NCBI GenBank assembly: GCA_030040715.1
Contig: JASHTF010000088.1
Coordinates: 1-47,831, forward strand
Direction of reading: 5' to 3'
From: Gammaproteobacteria bacterium
GTDB taxonomy: Bacteria; Pseudomonadota; Gammaproteobacteria; Steroidobacterales; Steroidobacteraceae
DNA length: 47,831 nt
Shown: piece after piece, positions 35,778 through 36,863 of the stretch
Layout: each line of letters opens with the position of its first letter
How positions within the stretch are numbered: position 1 is the first letter of the stretch
Made by a program: the position numbers and the translations under genes
Notes under the pieces: generated by a model
Seen by the model: only the letters and a program-made list of their open reading frames with translations
Told to the model about the DNA's origin: nothing
Databases searched by the model: none

Positions 35778-36209
35778 TTAGAACGGCAGGGGCTCCAGAT
35801 CCGGATCAACCCAACTGCGGCGCGCCTCGACGGAGAACAGCACCGACCTGGACCAATAGCGCAGCAGCCAGTCCGACCGCCCGTATTCCGTGGCCAGCAG
35901 TGCGTTTAGTGACCCGGACAGGGAGGCGTGACGGGGACGGCCATCGAGCCAGGCGCGGGCGGCGCGCAGCGATGCTTGGGTGATGGTCTCGTGATACCCA
36001 CTGCGCTCAGTATTGGCCACGCCGGTAGCTTCGTTGTAGGCCCGGATCAACACTGGCATGTCGCGCAGCGCGTCGGTGTCGGGCTGACGCAGTAGCCACA
36101 AGGCGGCAGCGAAGTGGGCGGCGTGCGTCCATTCGGTCTTGGGAAGGCTGCGCTCGAGCAGGCCCCGGCCAATCCGGTCGACGTCAACATCAGAGAATAT
36201 GTGCGGCAC
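35778..36209 (-). CDS. conserved hypothetical protein
   Basis: From GTG 36209: VPHIFSDVDVDRIGRGLLERSLPKTEWTHAAHFAAALWLLRQ...YNEATGVANTERSGYHETITQA; ORF can extend to 36251. Confidence 0.75.
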   Translation of the reverse strand: MPHIFSDVDVDRIGRGLLERSLPKTEWTHAAHFAAALWLLRQPDTDALRDMPVLIRAYNEATGVANTERSGYHETITQASLRAARAWLDGRPRHASLSGSLNALLATEYGRSDWLLRYWSRSVLFSVEARRSWVDPDLEPLPF

Positions 36210-36243
36210 GAGCGCGACTCCTAGGCGAGACGGCCGCGGAGCC

Positions 36244-36386
36244 CAAAACAAGCAACCCCGCCGGCGGCGGGGTTGCGAATGCTTCGAAACTGTAACTTGA
36301 AAGCTTCAGCTTCCACAGAGCAGGCACGCAGACCCCACCCGAAAGAGGGTCTGCCGTTGAGCCTTCCGAGCGATGAACCGAAGCAT
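36244..36386 (-). ncRNA. candidate structured RNA (leader/riboswitch-like or sRNA) ending in a terminator hairpin
   Basis: Long-range pairing ATGCTTCG (36279-36286) with CGAAGCAT (36379-36386) enclosing hairpins 36290-36318 and 36328-36354; followed on minus strand by terminator 36252-36276. Confidence 0.45.
36252..36276 (-). terminator. rho-independent terminator-like hairpin
   Basis: GCAACCCCGCC-GGC-GGCGGGGTTGC, 11-bp perfect arms; minus-strand tail TTGTTTT. Confidence 0.7.
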
Positions 36387-36863
36387 CGAGAACACTCTAA
36401 CGGCGGTTCGACGGTCGATCAAGCGGCGGACCCGAGGCGACCGAAGCCGGCCGCCTACCGATCCTAGAAACACATGCTCACTTTCCCCGGTCACCTCGCG
36501 ATGAGATCTACGATCTCGACGCCGGAGTGCTCCCGCGTGAGATGGACCGCTTTGAAATCGAGCGAGTGGTTCTCTCCCCACCACCGATCCCACCGGGCCG
36601 CGGACGCCCGAGTGTCGAGGAGCTGAGGGCCATCACGCGCAAGCAGCCGCGCATGAGAATGCGCGCCGCATCTATCGGCTTGCCTGAGATTACAACGAGC
36701 CTGGTGACAGTCGCTGTTGAGCGCGATGTTGACAGCAGCTGAGGTGTAGTAGGCCATGCCAGTGTGGCAAGGGACGCGAGTCATTAGCCCGGCCCACACC
36801 CTGAACGCACGGCGAGTTTCGCGCCCGGCTCGAATCCTGGCGTGGACCTGCCTATACTGCAGT

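Follow-up and report, generated by a model that had tools for sequence, protein, structure and literature searches.

The minus-strand RNA upstream of the gene at 36209–35778 in the window (the whole 47,831-nucleotide stretch of Steroidobacteraceae DNA analyzed here) is very probably a ribosome-mediated transcription attenuator of that gene, with glutamine codons as its signal. The anatomy of the element, its conservation and its co-variation make the attenuator reading well supported, and the charging of tRNA-Gln is its likely signal. The initial annotation had weighed a three-way-junction riboswitch against an attenuator. The second of these is supported by regulatory codons within a leader ORF and by three mutually exclusive helices (1:2, 2:3 and 3:4), and this leader-peptide design does not support the first. 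The helices and the terminator of that annotation stand; new to it are a leader ORF with its promoter, an antiterminator pairing and the conservation of the element. Table 1 lists the features.

Table 1. Features of the leader region and the gene downstream (positions in the window)
Feature	Position	Strand	Basis
Candidate -35 box TTGATC, 17-nt spacer	36417–36422	minus	Sequence; TTG position in homologues
Candidate -10 box TAGAGT, 7 nt before leader ATG	36394–36399	minus	Sequence; homologues alike
Leader ORF, 26 codons + stop, MLRFIARKAQRQTLFRVGSACLLCGS	36306–36386	minus	Same-kind leader peptides in 42 loci
Regulatory Gln codons CAA (36359–36357) and CAG (36353–36351), one Arg codon between	36351–36359	minus	Gln runs of homologues at same place
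Strand 1, pairs with strand 2	36344–36357	minus	MFE of unoccupied leader; own-versus-swapped test
Strand 2, GGUGGGGUCUGCG, pairs with strand 1 or strand 3	36327–36339	minus	Duplex, own-versus-swapped test, folding
Extra hairpin between strands 2 and 3 (first hairpin of the initial annotation)	36290–36318	minus	Sequence, folding
Long-range helix, 3′ half	36279–36286	minus	5′ half 36379–36386 is the first codons of the leader ORF
Strand 3, CGCAACCCCGCC, terminator 5′ arm and antiterminator partner of strand 2	36266–36277	minus	2:3 duplex
Strand 4, GGCGGGGUUGC, terminator 3′ arm	36252–36262	minus	Terminator scan, folding
Terminator U tract TTGTTTT	36245–36251	minus	Sequence, terminator scan
Shine-Dalgarno AGGAG, 8 nt before GTG	36218–36222	minus	Sequence
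Regulated gene, 143-aa all-helical predicted protein	35778–36209	minus	Homologue and structure searches

Folding and strand of the leader RNA

The long-range helix (ATGCTTCG at 36279–36286 with CGAAGCAT at 36379–36386), the two internal hairpins (36290–36318 and 36328–36354) and the 11-bp terminator hairpin (36252–36276), followed on the minus strand by TTGTTTT, all lie in the sequence where they had been placed in the initial annotation. The minus-strand RNA from 36246 to 36389 folds at -69 kcal/mol, compared with -49.6 ± 3.7 kcal/mol for dinucleotide shuffles (z -5.2), and its 108-nt core without the terminator has a folding z of -3.1. When both strands were folded, as had been proposed, the plus strand gave about the same energy as the minus strand, so folding energy alone cannot pick the strand. 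The earlier preference for the minus strand is supported by the T tract, the promoter, the leader ORF and the downstream gene. The U tract is 3′ of the hairpin on the minus strand only, and 36252–36276 with this tract is the only strong terminator-like site there on that strand. An intrinsic terminator lies between the leader ORF and the gene, and it is at the same place in most homologues; several Steroidobacter loci have a poor terminator U tract, and this counts against the reading.

Promoter and leader ORF

The long-range helix begins at the leader ATG (36386), 36 nt after the -35 box, and the leader ORF ends at 36306, within the structure. TTGATC-N17-TAGAGT puts the predicted transcription start at the ATG or one base before it, and therefore the leader ORF of the window is probably leaderless. 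A homologous leader, L025, has TTGACC-N17/18-TATAGT-N7-ATG, and 34 of the 42 homologous leaders have a TTG 34–38 nt ahead of their ATG (shuffles: mean 2.4, maximum 8); a Shine-Dalgarno-like sequence precedes one of these 42 starts. Leaderless starts are known for the trp leader of Sinorhizobium meliloti (PMC10117765) and for many Caulobacter genes (PMC4117421).

From its own promoter to its terminator the element would give a discrete RNA of ~143 nt, as it would if it were an independent trans-acting sRNA that ends at the terminator. Attenuators always release a short terminated RNA, and the leaderless trp attenuator RNA of S. meliloti, rnTrpL, is a dual-function sRNA (PMC10117765). We give an independent sRNA very little credence, however, because it would not need conserved leader codons, an antiterminator pairing or a place beside one gene family across orders.

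Alternative helices and ribosome position

Strand 2 (36339–36327), read as GGUGGGGU-C-UGCG, pairs either with the leader ORF around its Gln codons or with CGCAACCCCGCC. In the window the 2:3 duplex has 12 pairs and one bulge at -20.9 kcal/mol (z -3.3 relative to shuffles of strand 2), and this antiterminator and the 3:4 terminator are mutually exclusive. The protector hairpin 1:2 overlaps the regulatory codons, both in the MFE of the unoccupied leader and in the own-versus-swapped test below.

Folding of the window sequence with ribosomes at different positions gave the 1:2 hairpin and the terminator when no ribosome was present, and the antiterminator as MFE when the A site was at either Gln codon and the RNA extended to the end of strand 3; with the ribosome at the leader stop codon only the terminator remains. 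Strand 2 is accessible in the folds with the ribosome at the Gln codons and covered in the fold with the ribosome at the stop codon. The extra hairpin is also retained in the antiterminator fold. When strand 4 is included in the stalled-ribosome fold the MFE reverts to the terminator, and therefore the antiterminator must win kinetically, as in classical attenuators.

From these computed features (the leader ORF, promoter spacing, terminator and Gln codon position, and the three alternative helices with their conservation and co-variation) we infer leader translation, ribosome stalling, readthrough and a Gln-tRNA signal, in the following order. Transcription would begin at or beside ATG 36386, with the leader ORF leaderless. 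In an unoccupied leader strand 1 would pair with strand 2, and the 3:4 terminator would halt transcription. Scarcity of charged tRNA-Gln would make the ribosome pause at the Gln codons (36359–36351) and mask strand 1; the freed strand 2 (36339–36327) would capture strand 3 (36277–36266) before strand 4 is synthesized, and with the antiterminator formed the polymerase would continue into the 143-aa gene. A ribosome that reaches the leader stop codon (36308–36306) would mask strand 2, and the terminator would form again.

The MFE structure is junction-like, and a metabolite-binding riboswitch with a three-way junction was the other reading put forward in the initial annotation. In the Rfam comparison suggested there, the known riboswitches, T-box and amino-acid leaders of Rfam 15 gave no match in the window; none of 20 homologous loci matched at the gathering threshold, and relaxed thresholds gave weak matches only, carried by the terminator. 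There is no conserved aptamer-like sequence core, and conservation sits instead in the coding frame and the alternative helices. The element is almost certainly not such a riboswitch.

Conservation among homologues

A plain DNA search in 60 relatives gave no match beyond the window, and homologous elements surfaced only via the 143-aa protein. Genes of this family are preceded by the same anatomy in Steroidobacteraceae, Caulobacterales, Hyphomonadaceae, Sphingomonadales and others; carriers of the layout include Steroidobacter, Peristeroidobacter, Phenylobacterium, Caulobacter, Hyphomonas, Asticcacaulis, Kordiimonas, Sphingobium and Solimonas. Among the cultured carriers are Phenylobacterium kunshanense, Peristeroidobacter agariperforans and Caulobacter ginsengisoli. 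A lack of conservation in related genomes had been named beforehand as an outcome that would speak against a structured RNA; the element is conserved alongside its gene family.

An unbiased scan covered ORFs of 15–40 codons that end 75–130 nt before the gene in 81 upstream regions. Such ORFs contain QQ or longer in 39 of the 81 regions, compared with none of 81 on the reverse strand and ~0.7 in shuffles, so that at the family level a short leader ORF with a regulatory codon cluster precedes the gene. About half of the 81 homologues have no Gln leader, and this counts against the reading. Five of the latter (L079, L081, L086, L093 and L104) have as a neighbor, on the opposite strand, an alphaproteobacterial tmRNA gene of the permuted type (RF01849).

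Within the 42 leaders, which were chosen partly on Gln content so that Gln statistics are to be taken from the unbiased scan, frame 1 carries the Gln runs in 38, and the counts for the other two frames are 0 and 2. The runs are 2–5 codons long, CAA and CAG are used 60:86, Arg is often next after the run, and outside the run the peptides are poorly conserved.

Where homologous leaders have these runs, the window has QRQ, two Gln codons split by Arg; the missing run counts against a Gln attenuator. The split form is shared by L034 (RQRQ) and L060 (RQR). QRQ in place of QQQ could mark a decayed attenuator that works in homologues but in the window is left without its Gln run and without regulatory function, and no second copy was found in the draft genome. 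We regard decay as quite improbable, since the promoter, leader frame and strong terminator are intact, the 2:3 pairing in the window is strong (z -3.3), two other leaders have the split form, and covariance model R1 (below) scores the window at 85.8 bits, the window being in its training set.

Co-variation of the pairings

The own-versus-swapped test compares the pairing of each locus's own strands with that to the strands of other loci, after row and column effects are taken out. It was applied to 37 leaders whose alignment was chosen by leader peptide and terminator motif, independently of 1:2 or 2:3 pairing. The z values were -5.8 for 2:3 (0 of 20,000 permutations) and -7.4 for 1:2, and with close relatives removed -4.4 and -6.1, respectively, values in which the permutations leave some effect of shared ancestry. 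The window's own 2:3 residual is near zero (-0.2) and counts against the reading. Compensating 2:3 changes include GUUUGCG/CGCAAAC in Phenylobacterium, GGGUG/CACCC in L082 and L090, and GCUGG/CCAGC in L101; these sit outside the terminator stem and are needed by the antiterminator only. Both the 1:2 and the 2:3 pairing are maintained through compensating change. RNAalifold on a MAFFT alignment recovered hardly more than the terminator, since strands 1 and 2 are not in the same register from one lineage to the next, and per-sequence duplex tests were substituted for alignment folding.

Codon position and sibling leaders

The distance from the last Gln codon to strand 2 has a median of 15 nt (IQR 14–17; 14 in the window), a spacing at which a paused ribosome would leave strand 2 just free. 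R1, built from the leaders and run over ~880 proteobacterial genomes, detects additional Gln leaders ahead of members of this gene family, among them L109 and L135–L138. Leaders with this layout were also detected ahead of thrS (KHQQVTTTW; MSQMRKHQQVTTTW...) and of asd (TTTKRTTKTTT; MFTTTKRTTKTTT...), genes identified from Pfam. In these siblings the leader codons fit the regulated gene. Both thrS leaders tested have 14 nt between their last Thr codon and strand 2; the asd leaders, with a more variable spacing of 9–17 nt, count against the pattern. By the same logic the Gln leaders would point to tRNA-Gln charging. The correspondence between regulatory amino acid and gene pathway holds in the thrS and asd siblings, and the 143-aa protein is without an annotated pathway. 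Chance explains some R1 matches, among them terminators that follow Gly-rich genes and other hits within L114–L134.

Several further loci deserve separate mention. Three genomes of one alphaproteobacterial genus (L144, L160 and L161) have a leaderless ORF, MSQMRKHQQVTTTWTADRR..., with TTT before a threonyl-tRNA-synthetase-like gene, in the same attenuator layout; for two of the three the antiterminator was computed, at -22 to -24.5 kcal/mol. Thr/Lys-rich leaders (MFTTTKRTTKTTT..., MTPMKTRTITLKK...) with a terminator (L140–L143, L145–L147, L155, L157, L111, L113 and L122) precede aspartate-semialdehyde dehydrogenase, identified by Pfam in L141, L146 and L157 and by sequence likeness in the others except L111, whose downstream gene is putative; they are found in the window's own family too. 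L159 has a Gln-containing leader, MSGIAHIPQHQQDRRPAARFSLARK, in an attenuator-like layout before a LysE-type amino-acid exporter, possibly a second Gln-controlled gene, and L158 has an Arg-rich leader peptide, MILPSPRTSRRRILRAAVRFRACRSADGKCRA, with a terminator before a GNAT acetyltransferase.

The RNA logic would be identical if the leader encoded a nascent-chain arrest peptide, with a small molecule or antibiotic stalling the ribosome on QQ(Q)-R and the signal not being Gln-tRNA, and the Arg that often follows the Gln run agrees with this. Yet the peptides are poorly conserved apart from that run, its length varies from 2 to 5 as in codon-counting leaders, both Gln codons are used, and the Thr/Lys codons of the sibling leaders match thrS and asd; we consider an arrest peptide unlikely.

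The regulated gene

Sequence searches with the 143-aa protein gave no match in Pfam, NCBIfam or PDB, and plasmid records hold no relative of it. Its AlphaFold model is confident and all-helical (pLDDT 96.7, pTM 0.90). A PDB fold search with the model gave no match, and its only significant fold match is an uncharacterized Tupanvirus protein of 295 aa (E 7.6e-5, TM 0.78 on the query). The invariant residues of the family (among them W27, T28, H29, H32, N59, G63, N66, G71, H73, T75–T77, W114, W119 and R130) suggest an enzyme or a ligand-binding site. The protein is not known to be connected with glutamine, and this counts against the reading. Gene neighbors give no link to glutamine or another pathway; nine loci of the set have a thyA-like gene after the 143-aa gene. 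The Gln content of the protein is low (1.2% vs. 3.4% in neighboring genes of the window), but this was rejected as a glutamine link, because family members that lack the leader are just as poor in Gln.

The codons of a leader-peptide attenuator tell which amino acid must run short for a gene to respond, and glutamine is the cell's main nitrogen signal. A Gln-coded leader kept across orders is a first functional clue for this unannotated family without a structural relative. We think it fairly probable that an attenuator responding to tRNA-Gln charging is common to alpha- and gammaproteobacteria and marks a widespread gene, one without a solved-structure relative, as a glutamine-limitation response gene. 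If so, codon-sensing attenuation would extend to glutamine, and many proteobacteria would have in the 143-aa gene a candidate for the response to glutamine shortage. The candidate thrS and asd leaders found by R1 make side-by-side tests of the codon logic possible.

Comparison with known systems

The mechanism is of a known kind, that of the leader-peptide attenuators. Its amino-acid specificity and its target were not found described, nor was any Gln-codon leader attenuator, in the literature searched, an incomplete search with most subscription papers outside it. The best Rfam score on the element is that of the rnk_pseudo leader (RF01772); it is 25.4 bits, where the gathering score is 55, and comes mostly from the GC-rich terminator, and the downstream gene of rnk_pseudo differs. 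The glutamine riboswitch (glnA RNA) and the gltD motif would likewise respond to glutamine supply, but they are aptamer RNAs without a leader peptide, and the element has no Rfam match to them.

Closer in design is the trp attenuator of S. meliloti (rnTrpL/peTrpL), an attenuator of a biosynthetic gene in which a leaderless ORF likewise opens the RNA (PMC10117765); it has a Trp leader of 14 aa and trpE, whereas here there are Gln codons, ~27 aa and an unannotated gene. The uORFC-8-2 motif upstream of cysS in Rhodobacterales is an alphaproteobacterial leader ORF with proposed ribosome-mediated attenuation and tandem regulatory codons at positions 14–15 (PMC8632094); it differs in its Cys codons, its tRNA synthetase gene and its sequence family. 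The Thr/Lys sORFs of the SEP5 type, for one of which, ahead of an aspartate dehydrogenase gene of S. meliloti, translation was detected by experiment (PMC10117765), and the thrS leaders differ from the Gln leaders in having Thr/Lys codons and known pathway genes, but they have the same layout and fall under the same covariance model, and the thrS leaders share the same distance from codon to strand 2.
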